Below the pieces are notes generated by a model, which searched no databases, was not told where the DNA came from, and saw nothing but the letters and a program-made list of their open reading frames with translations. The translations under genes were made by a program, and so were the position numbers. Below, piece by piece: positions 15,172 to 59,943 of a DNA stretch of 64,000 bases (position 1 is its first letter; the number at the start of each line of letters is the position of its first letter). Source of the DNA: Spirogloea muscicola (lineage: Eukaryota; Streptophyta; Zygnematophyceae; Spirogloeales; Spirogloeaceae); the NCBI GenBank assembly GCA_009602725.1, contig WELB01000124.1, positions 304,155-368,154 of the forward strand. The letters are read 5' to 3'.

Positions 15172-15655
15172 GCATGCAGGTCGAGGCCTGTCATATTCAA
15201 TCTACCGAATCAAGTGTCGGGTTTGGCAGACTGCCCCAAGTCCTCAGCTAATGCTCACAGAAAGGGTCTCAGATTACCTAGGGGGACAGCGTGGCTGTTC
15301 TTACAAGCGTGTCTTCATCATCTTGCAGAGCGTTTTTGATGGGCTTCAGTTTGAGCGGTCTGCACTCTTCCGAAGCCAGAGTCGCACAAGACCGGAGCTC
15401 AATCTCGGAGAATGAGAGTCACACCTTGCACTTTCGACTCCCCACTTTATTTATGAGCACCGAATTTGATACTGTGCACTTGAAGGCTGCCACATCTGAA
15501 GGACAGTCGTTTAAACAGCCAACAAGGCAGAGAAAGCTGTCTTTTTGTGTTGGACGAATTTTTGTAGCATACATTGCCCTAAAGTACATGGATGCAGTCA
15601 AGCACAAGCGCTGCACGTCGTCCTAGGTAGGACGCTTCGGGCTTTTCTGTTAATG
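15172..15655. other. Intergenic region between convergent genes
   Basis: Holds the 3' ends of the coiled-coil gene and of the MBD-CDC6 gene. No further gene or repeat seen. Confidence 0.5.
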
Positions 15656-18600
15656 TCATGAGTCACTCTTGTGCTGCACCGGAAACCTGGAACCGCCAGG
15701 TTTCAGTAAAATGTTGTAGAAAAATCGCACTCCCTGCAAAGGACATACTGCTCATCATGTTGCTGGCACTGCACACGTCTAGGCATGATCAGGCATGGCA
15801 AGCACTGGAGATTTTCATTTGCCCTTAACCGAACAAGAACGGGCACAGCCAAATATCTGATTATCAGGCCCTCGGCCTTGCTGCCGGCGCCAAATACTGT
15901 AGTACCAGCAAAGAATGCAACTGAATTTGCGCGGGAACAGTGACAGTGATTCAAGCTGACCTGCAGTGCGAAGCAGATGTCTTCCTCACGCACCTTCAAG
16001 GTGACTCTCCGCAATGTATCATCCTTGCTAGAACCCAGCGTCACCAAGGCCTGCAGGACAGAGCTTGATGTGCTTAGTCCGTGCCGTTCTGAGAGCCCTG
16101 AAACAGAGAGACTCTTCCAGTATAGGGCGATGGCTGTGATAACCAGCCCAGAAAATAGAGTAAAGCCCTGAAAGCCCTGCAATCTCTGCAGCCAGTAATT
16201 ACTGAATGATATTTATTAAATGATCATTGTAGTTGAGAAGCTATGAAATAGCACAATTGGCATCTGTGTGCCTTGATTGTACACAACAGCTCCCAGGATG
16301 GCAAGCACTATGACAGATGATTAAATTGGCTTGACAACCTCATGTTGGCCAAGAGCAAGCTATGTAGCATTGCATGGGTTGAGAGGTAGAGTGCCACCTG
16401 ATCGGCCAGGACCTCGGACAGAGAGGATATTTCTGGGGCCGTCAAACAGTGGAGCCCCAACTGTCTGCACAAGTCTGCGTAGGCCTTGACGACCTGCAAG
16501 TGTACCAAGCTTGGTATAAGTAAGAATGCCGTGTGCCAGCTCCTAAACTTCTACGGCATTCTGCTGTGCAAGCTGGGCTCTAGATTGGGCTACTTGCTGC
16601 AATGTCCAGGCTCACCTCGCCAAGTGTTGCGTCCTTCTTCGACTTTCGAAACAGCCGTACGGTGGCACAAAGAATGATCTGCATACGATCATCATGCCTC
16701 AGAAGTGTGCATACCATCACTCGCATTCAAGGAACCTCGTGAATCTCGTACCTTCTCAAGAGCTCTGGTGTATAAGTAAGACAGATTCGGGGTTGAGAAA
16801 GACAGGCAATCTCTTTCATGCAGAGTCTTGTATGATCTGAGCGTGGCTGCTCTCACGGGCATCACACACGGCTTGCCTGCTGGTGCTGGGGCAGCCCCTG
16901 AATGATGTCCACAACTGGCGATCTAAAGGTGGTGGACAATGCCCGGGACATGTGGTGGATCTGAACCTGCAAGTCACAAATTGCAGTCGCCACATGAGAC
17001 TACCTTTGTGTCACCGGGACCTTCTTGCTCATCATGTCATAGACGTGTCAGCTATTGCAGGGCCAGCTATTGCAGTGCTCTTACATGTGGCTGCATTGTT
17101 GAGTGTCCTGGTGAAAGAGAAATCTCCTGTTTCGTCATCAGCACTGTCTGTGGGCTGGCCTGCGAGTCGTCCAATTCCAGAAGCTGCACTGCAGTCCTAC
17201 ACGACCATGACAGATGCGACATTGCTCAGTGCATTACATGTACCAAGACTAGTAGTGGAACCTCATGCCAATCAGGGCCACATGACGTTTTTGCAATCCT
17301 GGAAGCAAGTCAATGTACCTGCAGATGCTGAGGGCCTTGCGTAGGTCACCTGACGCTGCCGCCACTTTCTGGCAGGCAAAGGACCAGATTGAGCAAGTGG
17401 CCGGGATCCACGACAACTGCAATGACTTGGCAGACGCTGGCTCTAGCAGGGAGTAGGCATCAAGGCGATCACAGGAAGGAAGTGACTGCTGCCATTATTG
17501 TTGTTATGCTTGTTATGTCTGCAGGCTTGTGAACATTGTCCAGGACAGGTTTTCGTTCATCTCACCCTGGCACACAGCTCTAGGGCGCGCTCCTCAATGA
17601 CAGGAAAGGTGAGAGACTGCACAATCAGGAACGGGAGTACTGAATGAGCAGGGGACTTGGCAATATAGCTACCTTACTGCGGATGTAGATAAATCTTGAG
17701 AGCCTTGCAATTGCGTCAGAACCTCGGTGCTGGTGGGTGCCACAACTCACCAACAGGCGCTGCTTGAGGATGGCAACTATTTGCTCCTTTGTGTACGGCG
17801 CAAATGCGACTACCTGTGGCGGACCTGCATGCCAATACTTGCAGCACTTTGTTTGAGGTCACGTATTGCAGCAGTGATGCATTCTATGCCGGGCTAGTGC
17901 ACATCAACGTCCACGAGTTCAGGAGCCAAACCGCAATAAGCAGGGCACGGGTCTCACAAGGAAAGCTGCGGAGGCTGGGAAGGAGACGCTCCTGGAGGTC
18001 GATGACATTGGCGATGCCTGAGCAGACCCTCAGATAGTCATTCCTGGTCAGCAGTCATCTGTGATGTTCAAGAGCATGGAACTGGTGCTCACATGAAGAT
18101 CAGGAGATCCGCAGCTTGAATCGGTTATCCAGGGAGGCTTTCCTGGAGCGCACCAACCAACATGCAGCGCGAATGGGGCAGCACTGGGAGCCGGAACAGC
18201 TCAATCAGAACAGCTGAGTCTCTGCCTGCCAGCTGGTCCACCTCGTCAAGAATGAGAAGCCTGCCAAGCAAGCACATATAGCGACTTTGTCAGATTGCAA
18301 AGAACATGGAAGTGATTGACAAATTGAGCATACTTTATATTGGCAGACGTGGCAGGAAGTAGTTGTCTGCTCACATCATGGTTCTTCTTTGTCTATCTGA
18401 AGCAGCCCCAGTGGTGACCATCTGCCTCACAGCAGTCAAGGGGTCAAGTCGTTCCGGCTTGGTGGCCAATTGGGATGAATGGCCCAAGTCAGCAAGGATC
18501 TGCGTGGACGAATTCAATGCAGTTGGAAAACTGGAGACGCTCAGAGTGTTGACTGATGATAGTTTCAAGTCAAACTTGTCAGTGAGAACTTCACTCCACA

Positions 18601-20133
18601 TAGTCAGGTGAAGTGGCACATAGAATCTACATGAGCATCTTCTCACAGTTTCTCAAAGTGTATGTAGCCATCATTGGAGGACTGCATACCTGCCGGTATA
18701 TATCCTGGGGGCTTTGGAGTGCCATGCAGTTTATGAATACCTCCTGTAATGGAGTTTCACAAGCCTGCACAGATGCACCACCAAGATGCTCCAGTCCAGC
18801 GAGATTAATGCGTGCAGCTTCAGGCGTCAAGGCTCAGAGCAGCACTGTTGTGACTGACCTGAGCCCAGACTCTGGCATCGGCCCTGACCGCCTCAACAGT
18901 CAGCGATTTGCCGGTGCCAGGGCAGCCACACAAGTACAGGCTGCAAGGTCGCAGCTGCTCTATGGAGTCCCGCACAATGTTGCCGACCCGTCTCTGCTCT
19001 TCCTCTCGGCAGATGACCTGCTCTGGCCTCTCTGAGAGGTGGAGCGCTTTCTTTGCGGCTGCAAGGTTGCCTGCCAAGCCAGCAGCAACCGCGCAAAGGT
19101 GGCTCAGCAAAATGCAGGCCTCACATTTGTGCTTTGACGCAAAATCAACAGCTACTCGATGGGTTCTTCTTAATTACGTCGGATTAATGTGCAATGGAAA
19201 CAGACTCAGTATAGCTCTCTGCCTAGAGAGCATCAATGCATAATTGATGTCACTGCTCGGATAGTTGAGCTCACATCAACATGTCAAGAACAGCTCTTGC
19301 TTGGCGCCCCAGAAGCCATGATGGCTCACAGATCTGATTATTAGCTGAAGCCTCTCACCTCTGAAGTCCAAGAATTCTGTGCCCGGCAGTAGAGGGCTCG
19401 CCGGGCTGCCTGGTTGTTCTTCTGAACGTAATGGAGATCTCACGCTCATCGGCCGGCCTGATAAGTCGGTGGTCTTTGGTTGGAGCACTAAAGCCTCCTT
19501 GATGCAAGCTGTGCTTCCTGCAGGGGATAAGTCCTCCACGAGGAGCCGCCTTCGGACAGGCCGCGCTACAACGTCGGTGTCCAAGATGCCCAGCACAGGC
19601 CTCTTCTCCAGTACCCCCTTGCCTTGATGCATGGCTGGCACCTGATTCTCCTTCGTCTTGGCCGCGGCTGAGCTCACGTCCGCTGTACATAGGGAGAGAT
19701 CGGGCGCAGCGTGTTGTCAATCAAGGAGGCTCAAGGCACAAGGGTGACCTTCAGACAATGTGGTCACCTGTGGGAGCACATGAGGGACGCACTTTGGACG
19801 GGCTTGTCAAAGCTCCTCGCTGCACCTTTTCCCCAGTCGAAGTCCCGCGGCCGCTGGTCGAGGCCGCTAGTCGCGAGGTGCTGTTGTAGCTGGCGCCGCG
19901 AGCGGATGCAGGTGCCGTCTGGAGCGTAGAAGTAGACATCGATGCCGCAGCCCTTCTTCCGTGGGATGAGCTGCCAGCAGATTCAATACTCAGTTCAATA
20001 CTTTGGAATGAGCGTAGATCTGGGGCAGTGCACAAGACACCTTGCGAGACTTCGGCTCAGGTTTTCGTTGGGACGGTCTCACCTTCTTCGTCCATCCCGG
20101 CGGTGCAGGCCCAAAATATGCTGCTCCGGCCAT
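15656..20133 (-). CDS. CDC6: CDC6 replication licensing ATPase with N-terminal MBD-like domain
   Basis: Seventeen exons, all in phase, 617 residues: 20041-20133, 19793-19970, 19359-19682, 18859-19070, 18690-18764, 18375-18499, 18154-18260, 17958-18017, 17751-17824, 17566-17592, 17319-17368, 17085-17196, 16877-16966, 16616-16678, 16398-16493, 15961-16050, 15656-15733. Walker A GCPGTGKS is at about 247-254 and Walker B LLILDEVDQL at about 337-346. EVFINCMAL, GIANVIDL and sensor 2 SGDLRKAL (about 431-438) follow the CDC6/ORC1 order. A winged helix (VVKAYADLCRQLGL... then LVTLGSSKDDTLRRVTLKV) ends the protein. CDC6 loads the MCM2-7 helicase with ORC and CDT1. Residues about 10-80 instead read PPGW...DVYFYAPDG...RSRRQLQQHL...FDW, the methyl-CpG-binding domain pattern. 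Oddities: a 27-bp exon, a GC-AG intron after 16877, and two in-phase acceptors for exon 4 (19070 or 19058). The CDC6 call is very firm; the fusion rests on exons 1-3. Confidence 0.9.
19793..20133 (-). other. MBD-like domain encoded by exons 1-2 of the CDC6 gene
   Basis: Exon 1 (20041-20133) gives MAGAAYFGPAPPGWTKK and a basic stretch. Exon 2 (19793-19970) gives RKKGCGIDVYFYAPDG, then CIRSRRQLQQHLA and RDFDWGKG. The MBD family pattern is PPGW, a basic strand, DVYY.SP.GK, RS...L..YL and FDF, in that order and spacing. The intron between them is phase 0 with a good donor and acceptor. Exon 2 joins exon 3 (19682) in phase through GTGCGT at 19792 and a TATGTACAG acceptor. A different donor at 19767 is stronger but needs a poor acceptor to hold frame. 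Confidence 0.75.
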
Positions 20134-21168
20134 AGAGCCAACCGGAGCAGCTTCTTTGACGGATACACCCAAAAGCCTACTGTTTGTCTGCACGGCGCGG
20201 TCCTCGGCCGTGCTTCATGGCGGCCATAATCACAGAGCTCGGTGTGACAAAGGGCCAGCCGGCCAGGTCGGACGGTGACTCGTCGAGAAGCTGCAGCTGG
20301 AGGTCAAGGGAGGCACGGCGCGGCGCTCGCGCGGTGCTGAGGAGGGCGGCGTCGGGCACGACAGGACGAGGCAAGGACTCTAGACAGAAGGGTGCTAAGA
20401 AGGGTGGCTGAGCTGCACTGCACTTGGGGCGAGCGAGCTGTGAGCTCGGCCTCCGCTACGTGCTGGAGGGAGGTCTGAAAGGCTGAAGTGGCGGGGCCAG
20501 TGAGGCAGTCGGCACCTTCGCGCCAAAATGCGCGAGCACTTTCGCACGAGGCGCTTCGCGCCAAAAAGCGCGAGAAAATGCGCGAGTCGCTCCGCGCCAA
20601 AATAAAAGGGGGGGTAAAGGAGGAATGCCGGAGCAGGAGATTCGGACTTGCAGTCAGCGGGCCGACGCATCCCGGCATTCACGGTTCAAGCCGTTCCACG
20701 GGTGCCTGGCGGAAGGCTTCCGCTTCGCCCTCCCCGGCGAAGTTCATCATCCGGCCGACTTCCTCCGGCGCGGTTACTCGGGCAGGAGCTGGCGCCAGCC
20801 GCTGATGTCACCGTTCTCGCCACACCCGGGTGCCTCGTCAGCCTTTCCTACGCAGCCGCGTCGCAGCACAAGGCACCCCGCGCCCTCGACGTCGTTAGCG
20901 CCCTACCCCGTCCCCCAACTCGCTTCTGCGTATCAGTCACCAAGCGCAGAGGCTTCACGGCGCACGCTGCATCTCGCCCTCACGCACAACTTATAGTGGG
21001 CGCGCTCGGCATACAAGAGTGCGCAGCGGCTGCCTGCTTGGGGGCTGCGAGCTTAGGGCTGTTCGGCAGAACCTCCACCAGCCGGGTGCATCTTTCGCAC
21101 TGGACCGTTAATTCGTCTTTCGGGGCTGGACGTCTTGCCTACCCTGCCACCGTAGCTACGACTCTGAC
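20134..21168. other. Divergent promoter region CDC6 / ferredoxin-MBL
   Basis: Besides the E2F boxes, this holds a plus-strand open frame from ATG 20811 (MSPFSPHPGASSAFP...) ending at a stop near 20995. It is Ser/Pro/Ala-rich like an organelle-targeting peptide but no splice joins it to the next exon, so it is not called as coding. Confidence 0.45.
20517..20602 (-). promoter_or_regulatory. Cluster of three E2F-type boxes in the CDC6 promoter
   Basis: TTCGCGCCAAAA occurs at 20517-20528 and 20555-20566, and TCCGCGCCAAAA at 20591-20602, all in the same orientation at 38- and 36-bp spacing. Read from the CDC6 side they are TTTTGGCGCGAA, matching the E2F/DP consensus TTTSSCGC. They lie about 385-470 bp upstream of the CDC6 start, in the divergent spacer shared with the ferredoxin-MBL gene. 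CDC6 is a classic E2F target in animals and plants, so S-phase control is the natural reading. Confidence 0.8.
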
Positions 21169-23446
21169 ATGGCCGCATGGAGCTTCAAGTATGTGCCGTT
21201 GGCGATGCAAGTGAAGGAGGCCAGTGCCGGCAAGGGGACTGGTTGTCTTGTCTCCCCCAGCATGGGCAAGCGTCAGCAACAGAACGAAAACCTGCGGACG
21301 TCGTTCAGCGGTGAAAGCGTCCCAGCCAAGAGGGTGAGCACAGCTTCTCAGCGAGCGTTGGCTGTATGAATCTGTCCATGGAGAAACACAGGCTCTCCTT
21401 CCCGTGTATCATGCACGGCTGTGCCACTCCACCGCGCACAAGTCAGACTGCTCGGAGGCCTAGAATGCTGCGTCCTTGCCACAGTAAAGCGCCCTGCTCT
21501 ACCGTGACGAAGGTGCCGAGGCAATTAGCTCGAGACAAGACCTAGGCTCATCACTACCTGAGTCTAGCTGCTGTGTATGGTGCACCAGGCTGTTGACATT
21601 GGCTCTCGGCAAGCACCCAAGGCATTAACGTGCAGAGCCGTGTCGGCGAGCTGGGAGCGCAAGCGGCGCCCTGAAAACGTGGATGGGGACTTCTTTGTGG
21701 ATCACACCTGCATTGACTGCGACACCTGCCGATGGATGACACCAGTGAGCCACTCAAGAACCATCTGCCCTAGGATGGCGCTCAAAATTTCAAAGCAAAA
21801 ATAGAAGGAACCTGCTGCCGGGCACGTATTGAGCAATTATGAGTGCTAAGTCAGCAAAAAGGAATGCTGAATTTAGCAAAGTCAAGCAGTTCACCGTTTG
21901 CAGTCCTCACCTCCTTGTCACGTGCTATGCAGGAAACGTTCTCGAGGATTGGTGACATGTCAGCGGTCCACAGGCAGCCTCACTCCAAGGAGGAGCGTGT
22001 ACGGGCTCTGCAGGCGCTTCTGGCATGCCCCACAGCTTCCATCCACACTGAGAAGCCACCCAAAGACATCAAGGAGGCTCAAGCCACCTTTCCAATTCCG
22101 ATTGATGAAGGTTAGTGCTCACAATTGCTTACTTGCAGCTCTATGCAAATCTGAGACTGCTCTCCTGCGCTGGTGGCTCCCAGTGCTTGTGAATCTGTAG
22201 CTTTCAATAACCCCTAGACACCTTCACCTTGAGGCTGTTGAGGAGGTCAGAGCCATTGCATCATGGACTTGACAATATTGGACTGTATGTGGGGCAGTTG
22301 ATTTGCCCGGTGTGTACCACTCTGGCTACCATTCGGAGAAGTCATTTGGAGCTACGTCCTACTTCATCGTCAGGGAGCAGGGAGGGAACGTGCTTGTGGA
22401 CAGGTACGTCAGTGCAGCCGATCAAGCACCTGGGGAAATATACGTCTCTTATACGAGTGGAAGCTTCAGGGTGCTACGATTCAATAGCATGCTTCATATA
22501 CCAGCTGATATGGCACCAAGAGACGCTTCAACGACTAAGCAACCTCCTGGCTACAGGGTTAATTGTTGATTACCACTGTACTTTTGGCCATGCAGCCCTC
22601 GTTTCACGGAGCAGCTTGCCAAGCGCCTTGAACAACTGGGCGGGGTGGACTACTTGTTTATGACACACCGGGATGACATCGCTGATCACGACCGGTGGGC
22701 CGCTCGGTTTGGCTGCAAGCGCATCTTCCACATGAACGAGGTGACTGCAGCACACAATTCAGGAAGTGCTGCACGCAAGAGATTGTCGTATGGCCACTAT
22801 AGATGCGGGCTCAGGATCGGGTGGAGTAGTTTGGTGCAATAATGTTCTCTTGCTTTTATGGCACTTTGAAGCACTTAAGCATGTTGACAGGTAGGTGGCA
22901 GCACACGAGACGTGGAGATGAAGCTTGAAGGAGAGGGGCCTTGGGAGCTTGGACCTGATATCTCTCTCTTCTTCACACCCGGCCACACGTCAGGCCACGT
23001 TGTGCTGCACTACCGACAGGGTGTCGGGGCGCTGTTTACAGGCGACCACCTGGCCTACTCCACGCGAGTAGGCGGGCTGTCTATAATGCGGGCCTACAAT
23101 TGGCACTCAGTTGCAAAGCAGGTGGAGAGTTGCCGCAAGCTGCTGCCACTCGACTTCCTCTGGCTGCTGCCAGGTGCGCTAAATCTTGAGATTCATATCA
23201 GTCAACAATCATCATAACATGGTCACTGAAGTGTCCTGACCAGTTCCACTTATACTTGTGCTTATCTTAAGCGACGTAGTACAAGTGATTAAGAAATCTG
23301 TGAAGCTGGCGATCCTAAGTGGCACTCGGTGGTGTGGTGCAGGACATGGTAGAAAGTACAAGTTTGACAGTATTGCAGACAAGATGGCAAAGTTGGAGCA
23401 GTTGGTAGAGCAGGAGGACAGCCTGCTGGCGACGTCTCGCAAATGA
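21169..23446 (+). CDS. Ferredoxin-like / metallo-beta-lactamase-fold protein
   Basis: Seven exons in phase, 378 residues: 21169-21333, 21589-21744, 21933-22110, 22298-22403, 22596-22740, 22891-23173, 23343-23446. Residues about 86-105 read VDGDFFVDHT then CIDCDTCRWM, a four-iron ferredoxin-type cluster site; ETFSRIGDMSAVHRQP follows. The metallo-beta-lactamase fold comes after: GVYHSGYHSEKSFG, a first metal motif THRDDIADH (about 225-233), FTPGHTSGH (about 278-286) and LFTGDH (about 298-303). The order and wording match the land-plant and algal family of At4g33540, whose reaction is not established. The first motif is HxDDxxDH-like rather than the usual HxHxDH, which seems normal for this subfamily. 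Exon 1 may be a targeting peptide. It is transcribed away from CDC6 and converges on the CAP gene. Confidence 0.88.
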
Positions 23447-23907
23447 GCATCGTTGATGTGATTACAAGATGCTTGGTGTGCAGGAGAGAAGTTTGCTTGC
23501 AACCAAGTTGTGGCAATTGGTCACTGCATTTATTGTCTTTGAACTAGAATGCGAGTTTGTGCATAAAAGATTTGAGGACATATAATCTGAGGAGCTCTGT
23601 CATTTGAAAGCTGTCAGACGACGCAGTTGGGCTCTAAACGATTCCTTGAGTGATGTACTCTAATCAAATCTACTTCACCTCTACAATGTCCTACACGGAC
23701 TATTCATACAACCTCATGTTAGGAGTACTTGGTTATGTTGCCATTGGCAGATAAATGCAGAGAAATGATCTAAAGCAGATTAAGGACAACTGACAACATG
23801 GTCAATAGTAACATCAGATGTGCCTCACTTTGGCCGGCACCTCTGGCACCTGCGGTGCGGGAATGAGTCAGTCGTTGGTGATCGTTTTTCGCCCTATCAG
23901 CTGTCAG
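23447..23907. other. Intergenic region between convergent genes
   Basis: Fairly AT-rich; holds the 3' ends of the ferredoxin-MBL and CAP genes. No motif recognised. Confidence 0.5.
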
Positions 23908-26004
23908 TCAGAATGGCTCTTGGGGTATGCAGGGATCACACTGGGCATTCTGACAGTCGCATACGTTGCCGGGTGGGGAGTACTCGCAGGCCACCAACCA
24001 AGCTGACCCGCTGTACAATGTCGTCCCACTACTGAAAACGAAGGGGCAGCTTGCCTGTTGCAAAATGACCCAACAGTAATGAGAGTTAGCAAACACTGAC
24101 GTTCAACTTCGCCATATTGACACTGTCCAGATTCGTTTTACTTGTGCTCAAACTGCTGGTGCCGCCTAATCAGGTAAACAGTGGGCTAAGCTCGGTTGAG
24201 GGTAGAGTGTGTGCTGTCAGGCTACTCCACTCAAAGTGGAGCAGCCTGACAGCAAAAGCATGATTATCATCAGCAGTTTGTACGTCAATTCCAGGCCATA
24301 AAGACAGCTGCTACAAGTGATAATGATGACACTCACTGCACCACAACCAAGCTTGACCGATTCCCTCCACACCACCTGAGTATAGTGGCTGCAAACTTTG
24401 CCAGTCTGCGATTTATCAGGTAGGTCAACTATGCCCTTTGTCAGTAAGGTAGAGGAAAGAGACGAGGATGCTCGAGTTGTTTGACAAGCAGCTAATTTTA
24501 CGCTGCAAAATGACTTCAGGCAAGCACTGACGCTCAGAAGCAGCTTGATTCATATTTGACGTCAGGACGAAGGTGATGCATTGCCTACATACAAAGTGGC
24601 TGTGCGATCTGAAGTTGTCCAAGTCTAGAGGCATTGTTAAGTGGCCTTCTTGATAGGCAGCGGGTTTATACGACAAGACTCGGGGCAGTAAGGCATGACA
24701 GCTATATACCTGGCAGGTGTTAGAAGCATAGTCATAGTACTGCTTCTCTGATATCCAGGCTGCCACTGCAGCTGATATGTCAAGTGCCTTAGGAGGAAAC
24801 GATGCAGACCAGTACAGGTTCTCGCCATAAGGTCCGCCACTGCAGTGCACGCTGGCATTGATTGAACAGTCTGGCAGCAAGGCAGATGAGGCAGTAGACG
24901 AGGCAAGAACAACGCTCAAAGATGCAGCTGAGTGTCACGTCTCAGCAGACAGCGAAAGCTCGTACACTTTACAACACTAACCTATGCGTAAGTACGCCAT
25001 TTGCACAATTGCCGTTGGCGACTTGAGAGTGAGCGTAATCAGAAGCGTAAGTGGCCAAGGTCGTGTTGAAGACCAGAAGGCTATCATCATAAATAGTATG
25101 CCTGGAACATGACATAAGTGTAGGTCAGACTGTCGATTACAACTCAGAGCAATATTTCTCCATGTAAGAAGAACGAAGCTCCGAGCACTCAGCCCACATA
25201 GCAATTCTGCGCTTCACAATGTGAGTACATGCAAGCAAAGGGAGTCTTCACATCTGGAGCATCGAGATTTACGGAAGCTCACCTTTCCACATTATGTAGA
25301 TCGGTGTACTGCTCTTGTTCTGTCAAAAGCATCCGTCCAATTCTGTTGGAGAACGAGCTGCGCGCTTTGTCAGGCATGGGAGCTTGGGCATTTCCTTCAC
25401 CAAAAGCAAGGCTCCAGACGGCAGGCTCTCCTGCCAAAGTGCGACTAAGCCCCTCGGCTTGCACTGCACTCATCGTTTATATGCAAGACCACGATCAGCA
25501 CTGGCGGAGACAACAATGAGAACAAAGCTGTTGAGCTCAGTTAGTCATTGGGGCACAAAGCCTTGGCCTAAGGTCAGTATGCTGTCCTGCTCCCTCATTG
25601 ACTGCACACTGGGCATGGTTTTCGCCCCAGGGAGCCATTTCCAGCATGTAGTGATGAATTCAGAGCAGAAAGCTCGCAGCTTTTGCATGAAGTGTATGGA
25701 CGCAGCTCGGCAGATCAGCGAATCGTGTGATGCACGTGCGCACCTGCTGATGACAGGCAAGCGAGGACGGCCAGCAGCAGCGGCGGCAGCACAATCGCCT
25801 GCAAGCCAACCGCGCAGCGTCAGGCTCGGCTTGCGAGCACGAGTTCATAAGTGGCCTCTCTGCATGAGCTCGGTTGGCCTTCACAGCTCCCCTGCATGTC
25901 AGCAACCGTCTCCAAGAGAGAGCTGGCCAGCCTGGCGTGTAGCCGAGCTTCACCAGAGCTGGCTTGGCGGCGACGGAGAGCGCGCGCACCACGGCGTGGT
26001 CCAT
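23908..26004 (-). CDS. CAP-domain (PR-1-like) secreted protein
   Basis: Seven exons in phase, 239 residues: 25954-26004, 25744-25798, 25283-25430, 24982-25101, 24710-24839, 24337-24405, 23908-24054. The start sits in a strong context (GCCGCCATGG). Exon 2 gives a hydrophobic core [15 protein letters not shown], a signal peptide or anchor. The CAP motifs follow in order: [73 protein letters not shown] and [10 protein letters not shown]. The CAP1 (HYTQVVW) and CAP2 (EYSPPGN) signatures are intact and close to plant PR-1. The last exon adds a short Cys-rich tail after PPGN. CAP proteins are usually extracellular, and some bind sterols. Its role here is unknown. Confidence 0.92.
24212..24254. repeat. 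Hairpin in the last intron of the CAP gene
   Basis: Arms 24212-24230 and 24236-24254 are 19 bases each with a single mismatch and a 5-base loop (TCAAA). The stem reads TGCTGTCAGGCT.CTCCAC. It could be a tiny foldback element or a structured intron RNA. Confidence 0.75.

Positions 26005-58525: not shown

Positions 58526-59943
<1,418 letters not shown>

Follow-up and report, generated by a model that had tools for sequence, protein, structure and literature searches.

A predicted fusion of a methyl-CpG-binding domain to CDC6 in the alga Spirogloea muscicola

The stretch of DNA analysed here, 64,000 nucleotides from Spirogloea muscicola (assembly GCA_009602725.1, contig WELB01000124.1, positions 304,155 to 368,154), is called the window, and all coordinates are positions within it. 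On its minus strand lies a gene for the licensing factor CDC6 that appears to encode, ahead of it, a methyl-CpG-binding domain (MBD). A model of 17 exons fits positions 20133-15656 (-), with start and stop exactly where an earlier note on this DNA had put them, and the product of 600 residues (601 codons with the stop) has a Pfam MBD at residues 9-65 followed by a full CDC6, comprising the AAA+ domain, the lid and the winged helix. From the sequence comparisons described below we infer that the two parts very probably belong to one joined transcript and form a real fusion. On balance, the explanation that we favour is a one-gene MBD-CDC6 in which the MBD grips methylated CpG during licensing.

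The assembly (153 Mb, 471 contigs) was searched exon by exon in six frames. With the joined N-terminal protein as the query, 12 matches were returned, all within three collinear loci: the window copy (C124) and two further copies on contigs C117 and C270. Each locus presents the same order of MBD exon 1, MBD exon 2, exon 3 tail and Walker A exon. Over a stretch of 6.6 kb the window is 86-88% identical to the C117 and C270 copies, introns and intergenic DNA included, and these two are 86% identical to each other. All 17 exons are open and gap-free in the three copies, every splice dinucleotide is kept, and the join from the MBD to CDC6, made at the splice site that we call donor A, is in phase in each of them. 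Insertions and deletions number 38 events in 2491 aligned intron bases, compared to none in 1803 exon bases. The MBD exons are clearly conserved, with 13 variable sites out of 196 against 52 out of 247 in introns 1 and 2 (Fisher p = 2e-5). The pooled ratio of non-synonymous to synonymous variation (pN/pS) is 0.27 for the MBD exons, 0.21 for the AAA+/winged-helix part and 0.41 for exon 3 from the residues MHQ on, while the ratio of the corresponding substitution rates (dN/dS) for the MBD exons is 0.18, 0.46 and 0.18 in the three copy pairs. The order of MBD before CDC6 is more than chance, as it recurs in three diverged copies without exon gaps. Other genes are present in similar numbers, with four copies of PCNA and three of a DNMT1-like gene; CDC6 and DNMT1-like copies share 86-90% of their DNA sequence. 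Judged from these three genes only, the assembly therefore appears to comprise diverged subgenomes or mixed strains, three or four in number. An ORC1-like locus was met once, through one split domain.

The exon chain that had been read as CDC6 is confirmed by profile searches. The joined product scores 72.7 bits with Cdc6_C, 43.3 bits with AAA_22 and 37.7 bits with the Cdc6/ORC-like lid, all above cut-off; the separate Cdc6_lid model gives 21.7 bits, below its cut-off of 27. The ATPase part scores 195.3 bits against human CDC6 and 150.5 bits against the best ORC1 chain, and another contig (C61, locus L020) bears a distinct ORC1-like gene that has a PHD finger, in which three pieces chosen by eye score 35.6 bits for the PHD finger, 30.6 and 28.6 bits for AAA lids and 27.7 bits for Cdc6_C. 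The window gene is therefore CDC6, and an identity as ORC1 was rejected. In the exon-by-exon search of the assembly the Cdc6_C profile returned the ORC1-like locus only and missed the CDC6 copies, in which the winged helix is split over several exons. Exon 3 (19359..19682, (-)), gap-free in the three copies, encodes the regulatory tail of CDC6. Its KEN box (residues 76-78), RRRL motif (109-112) and SP sites at 118, 158 and 161 are invariant, and a fourth SP at residue 148 is lost in C270. We take the KEN, RRRL/RxL and SP motifs to be the degradation and cyclin-dependent kinase features expected of a CDC6 tail. Since exon 3 carries these usual features, the MBD was added ahead of the tail and did not replace it. 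The predicted role of the MBD-CDC6 product is MCM loading together with ORC.

The MBD itself is divided between exon 1 (20083..20133, (-)), which holds the ATG and the first strand of the domain (MAGAAYFGPAPPGWTKK) and whose protein sequence is identical in the three copies, and exon 2 (19826..19970, (-)), gap-free in the three copies, which supplies the remainder up to donor A. The earlier note had recognized an MBD pattern here and proposed a Pfam search as a check. The Pfam MBD profile (PF01429, cut-off 21 bits) gives 27.1 bits for exon 2 alone and 37.7 bits for the joined window product, and the N-terminal 244 residues of the other two copies score 44 and 43 bits, so that the pattern is borne out. 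The profile is found at four places in the assembly, namely the window gene, its C117 and C270 counterparts and one other gene on contig C12. The latter (L003/L022, C12:169500-176000) is the only other MBD match of the exon-by-exon search, and a PHD-like stretch was noticed in it by eye. The window MBD aligns with MBD2, MBD3, MeCP2 and MBD11 chains. One study gives R166, Y178 and R188 of MBD2 as critical to methyl selectivity, with a Phe replacing the Tyr in MBD3 (PMC9520026). By our own placement on the alignment, R21, Y30 and R40 of the window protein lie opposite these three residues, and R21, D28, Y30, R40 and S41 do not vary among the three copies.

Given the fusion, the MBD probably binds methyl-CpG, as these residues suggest. 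It is unlikely, though a serious alternative, that the fusion is real and the domain has ceased to read methylation, acting as a plain DNA- or protein-binding module or as a spacer. What points in this direction is loop L1, which lacks three residues relative to MBD2 and MBD3, and a shorter loop may lower the affinity; this counts against methyl-CpG binding. Loop L1 varies in length within the MBD family and is not defining for the Pfam family, and for this reason the shorter loop was not used to exclude membership. The loss of methylation reading is opposed by the invariance of the five residues named above, by the presence of Tyr, not the Phe of MBD3, at the selective position, and by a genome that has both a DNMT1-like gene and a decay of CpG.

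The decay was assessed from the three-copy comparisons. CpG transitions amount to 31.2% of comparisons in the CDC6 introns, compared to 6.8% for GpC, and to 15.6% against 4.9% in the CDC6 exons; at the DNMT1 locus the values are 17.6% and 6.1%. The three copies of the DNMT1-like gene (C256, L021; C168, L037; C234, L038) carry a complete methylase domain and two BAH stretches. Taken together, CpG decay and the DNMT1-like gene indicate that gene bodies carry CG methylation and that the promoter zone is affected less, although this is a footprint in the sequence and not a measurement. The promoter and MBD exons show 16.1% CpG transitions against 7.5% for GpC, so that the CpG-rich zone at the start of the gene is not free of decay, a further point that tells against the methylation side of our explanation. 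Scattered over the assembly are 71 cytosine-methylase profile matches (for example C351:12547-12888, C134:128191-128526 and C2:499840-500058). Many of them span only profile positions ~45-120, and some sit within open frames longer than 1000 residues, a pattern suggestive of methylases borne by mobile elements.

Whether the MBD and CDC6 parts form one gene or two can be approached from the signals around them. The exon 1 ATG is present in the three copies, and conservation jumps at this position, with 41 of 180 sites varying in the 200 columns upstream and only 2 of 51, both synonymous, in exon 1. Intron 1 (19971..20082, (-); GTGAGA...CAG, phase 0) keeps its splice dinucleotides in the three copies, while its body has diverged and contains three indel events. 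No in-frame ATG common to all three copies exists in intron 2 or exon 3; relative to exon 3, in-frame ATGs lie at +50 and +233 in C124, at -97, -85, -28, +50 and +233 in C117, and at -28 and +26 in C270. From the exon 1 ATG up to exon 4, all three copies lack both TGTAA and AATAAA. TGTAA, which we take to be the algal poly(A) signal, is found at 15301..15305 (-) as the likely signal of this gene, and it lies 344-353 bases past the CDC6 stop in the three copies.

A CpG-rich zone (19834..21033, (-)) extends from -900 to +300 of the exon 1 ATG, with observed/expected values of 0.64-1.19 in 300-base bins of the three copies, compared to 0.28-0.76 along the CDC6 body, and no second rise occurs at exon 3 in any of the three. 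A similar peak of ~1.0 marks the starts of all four PCNA copies. Their bodies have lower CpG in the three copies that are readable (the C8 copy is largely N), and in those three the values rise again 2.1-2.4 kb downstream. Upstream of exon 1, three TTTTGGCGCG 10-mers, which are E2F-type sites, are clustered at 20519..20602 (-), and these are the only three occurrences in the window. Two TTTSSCGC sites there are conserved across the three copies. Counted over the whole window, this shorter pattern shows no enrichment (10 found, 13.1 expected), and only the tight 10-mer cluster is notable. Between the MBD and CDC6 parts there is no E2F-type cluster. The CpG-rich promoter may be shared with a divergent gene predicted at 21169-24980 (+), and the CpG and E2F lines therefore bear mainly on what the interval between MBD and CDC6 lacks. 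In that divergent neighbour, ferredoxin-like and metallo-beta-lactamase-fold-like stretches were noticed by eye. Ahead of exon 1 lies an upstream open reading frame of 16 codons (MAAMKHGRGPRRADKQ) at 20177-20227 (-), of which an inner ATG at 20216-20218 and the TAG are kept in the three copies while the residues vary. Taken together, the architecture of a single MBD-CDC6 gene put forward in the earlier note is supported by the three-copy comparison, by the position of the promoter and by the lack of a poly(A)-type signal or a conserved CDC6 start between the parts; the separate short MBD gene that it had named as the alternative is only made unlikely.

The weak point of the joined gene is intron 2 (19683..19825, (-); phase 1), which has the weak donor GTGCAG and the acceptor TATGTACAG. 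Two splice choices had been described for it, and both donor A (exon 2 ending at 19826) and donor B (exon 2 ending at 19793) do exist in the window. Donor A is present in the three copies. The GT of donor B (19792) occurs at that place in C124 only, C117 having a GT one base earlier and in another phase, and donor B was rejected as a general site because the GT is missing there in two of the three copies. A further donor at 19767 (GTGACC) was rejected because a stop codon precedes it in C270. Read without splicing, the MBD frame ends at 19764-19766, in agreement with the stop expected near 19765, and the other copies stop within a few codons of this place.

To score the splice sites and gene models, we used a purpose-written three-copy gene finder, which yielded a continuous protein when applied to the DNMT1-like gene. 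From the three copies of that gene, 16 of 19 predicted introns were added to the training set; three introns, the first and the final two, were left out as unreliable, and so was another gene predicted at the same locus. The splice-site test is not fully independent because the DNMT1-like introns were predicted with a model seeded on CDC6. Among the resulting 90 sites (CDC6 and DNMT1-like), the intron 1 donor ranks at the 70th percentile and its acceptor at the 21st to 34th. One predicted DNMT1-like intron has GTGCAG as its donor in a single copy, and a different one has CTATGTACAG as its acceptor in two copies; these match the weak sites of intron 2 in the window. The finder preferred one-gene over two-gene paths in all nine settings (three reference copies times three intron costs, with start and intron costs set by us), by 8.3-13.4 log units. 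Flat and CDC6-only splice models either carried the gene too far upstream or broke it up; they were set aside as undertrained. Their odd choices for intron 2 included one from 19767 to 19683, with an additional tiny exon, and one from 19767 to 19601.

Several of these results have to be held against a single joined gene. Under the CDC6-only splice model, both intron 2 sites score lower than any training site in each of the three copies, and so does the intron 1 acceptor. Among the 90 sites, the intron 2 donor reaches only the 5.6th percentile and the acceptor the 10th to 28th. The margin in favour of one gene is conditional on the costs assigned to starts and introns, and the finder itself placed intron 2 differently in each copy, with donor A in C117, donor B in C124 and a different donor and acceptor in C270. 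The variable sites of the MBD exons are distributed as 3, 3 and 7 over the three codon positions (p = 0.10, not significant), compared to 31, 20 and 77 in the ATPase part. In the 17-codon link between the exon 3 acceptor and MHQ, the counts of 2, 5 and 3 show no third-position excess, and pN/pS is 0.60 (1.59, 0.35 and 0.43 for the three pairs); the coding status of this link is not shown by substitutions alone. The sequence KENQVP within it is invariant in the three copies. The sites of intron 2 are thus not settled by score, with donor A as the likeliest donor.

It is quite unlikely, in our estimate, that intron 2 is often retained, so that an MBD-only protein is made beside the fused CDC6 in a ratio set by splicing. 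A donor that is weak in the three copies and is followed by a short conserved tail speaks for such an arrangement, but the variable sites of this tail number 2, 3 and 1 by codon position and show no coding pattern, and transcripts that keep the intron, with its early stop, may just be broken down. Two separate genes, a short MBD protein of 82-85 residues ending near 19765 and a CDC6 that starts in intron 2 or exon 3, are improbable. In their favour, the unspliced frame stops at nearly the same place in all copies, the residues ARSFDKPVQ after donor A are identical, C117 and C270 share an in-frame ATG 28 bases ahead of exon 3, the intron 2 splice sites are weak, and the codons between the exon 3 acceptor and MHQ lack a coding signature. 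However, no in-frame ATG of that region is shared by all copies, the interval has no TGTAA, and CpG does not rise at exon 3. In addition, the 60 bases past donor A differ by 12.1%, which is intron-like when compared to the 4-6% of exon 2, and a CDC6 starting at MHQ would lose the invariant KEN box. An assembly artefact, setting unrelated MBD exons beside CDC6, found no support and has a negligible probability, given that the same order, phase and flanks occur on three separate contigs diverged by 12-14%.

The remaining exons of the MBD-CDC6 gene, all on the minus strand, complete the ATPase. The AAA+ core begins in exon 4 (18859..19070), with the Walker A motif GCPGTGKS, and continues through exons 5 (18690..18764) and 6 (18375..18499), both placed by the three-copy alignment, to exon 7 (18154..18260), which contains the Walker B motif LLILDEVDQ. 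Exons 8 (17958..18017) and 9 (17751..17824) again rest on the three-copy alignment; exons 10 (17566..17616) and 11 (17319..17368) encode the AAA+ lid. Exon 12 (17085..17196), from the same alignment, is followed by exon 13 (16877..16966), after which a GC-AG intron at 16679-16876 (-) is conserved in the three CDC6 copies. The winged helix is formed by exons 14 (16616..16678), 15 (16398..16493) and 16 (15961..16050), and exon 17 with the stop codon (15656..15733) closes the gene, the stop being kept in the three copies. A longer 3' end at 15318, reached via an extra intron and preferred by the gene finder, was set aside, as the stop at 15656 is common to the three copies. Elsewhere in the window, a run of 113 T occupies positions 59100-59212. 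The RuBisCO large subunit had no match in the assembly, the chloroplast being absent from it or lost, and 68 chlorophyll-binding matches are in keeping with a phototroph of the green lineage.

These elements can be combined into a working model. A single promoter ahead of exon 1 would drive one gene and thereby yield a CDC6 with an N-terminal MBD, in the order MBD, regulatory tail with KEN box, RxL and SP sites, AAA+ ATPase and winged helix. In G1, the MBD would grip symmetrically methylated CpG, and this hold would bias where, or for how long, CDC6 sits with ORC during MCM loading. Degradation through the KEN/RxL/SP tail, as in other CDC6 proteins, would then end the hold. A coupling of licensing to DNA methylation is plausible from the sequence, with a DNMT1-like gene, CpG decay and methyl-selective residues all present; an actual effect of the MBD on licensing we regard as possible and put forward tentatively. 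As a long shot, licensing might even depend on fully restored methylation, in that hemimethylated fresh DNA would be a poor site for CDC6 until DNMT1 has acted, and CG methylation would record that replication has taken place and thereby help to block re-licensing. The counterpart in logic to such a methylation-based block is provided by SeqA and Dam of E. coli.

It has long been asked how eukaryotes select their replication origins when no fixed sequence marks them. If the proposed fusion is correct, a licensing factor carrying its own methyl-DNA reader would provide a direct and testable physical link from CG methylation to MCM loading. To our knowledge, and with no survey of the CDC6 proteins of other species, no CDC6 with an MBD has been described. 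The literature that we searched contained no report of an MBD in CDC6, which is not proof that it is unpublished. The word "methyl" is absent from the main text of PMC7058166, and neither "domain" nor "methyl" occurs in a paper on the Chlamydomonas pre-replicative complex (PMC8081180). Two short peptide patterns each, run against viral and prokaryote contigs, returned no relatives.

Compared to animal CDC6, represented by the human protein (PDB codes 8s0e and 8rwv), the AAA+ core, lid and winged helix of the window protein align over 398 residues (E = 1.3e-56), and both proteins have an N-terminal tail with KEN, RxL and SP motifs; the difference lies in the MBD ahead of this tail. With the MBD2/MBD3/MeCP2 family, the window protein shares an MBD sequence that has the methyl-selective Arg, Tyr and Arg, and it departs from that family in its shorter loop L1 and in being joined to a replication ATPase. 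UHRF1, which reads hemimethylated DNA via another domain, is likewise an epigenetic reader with an influence on early replication, although it is a separate protein. Its depletion from Xenopus extracts is reported to inhibit an early replication step (PMC3763540). A further parallel in architecture is the ORC1 of green plants and algae (BAH-PHD-AAA+), in which a chromatin reader also stands N-terminal to a licensing AAA+ ATPase; there the readers, BAH and PHD, bind histone tails and sit in ORC1, whereas the window gene has an MBD in CDC6. One study (PMC7058166) places the insertion of the PHD finger into ORC1 in the common ancestor of Chloroplastida. If the fusion is real, this insertion and the MBD in CDC6 would be two such additions, and this would suggest that chromatin readers joined the ORC1/CDC6 pair repeatedly during green-lineage evolution.

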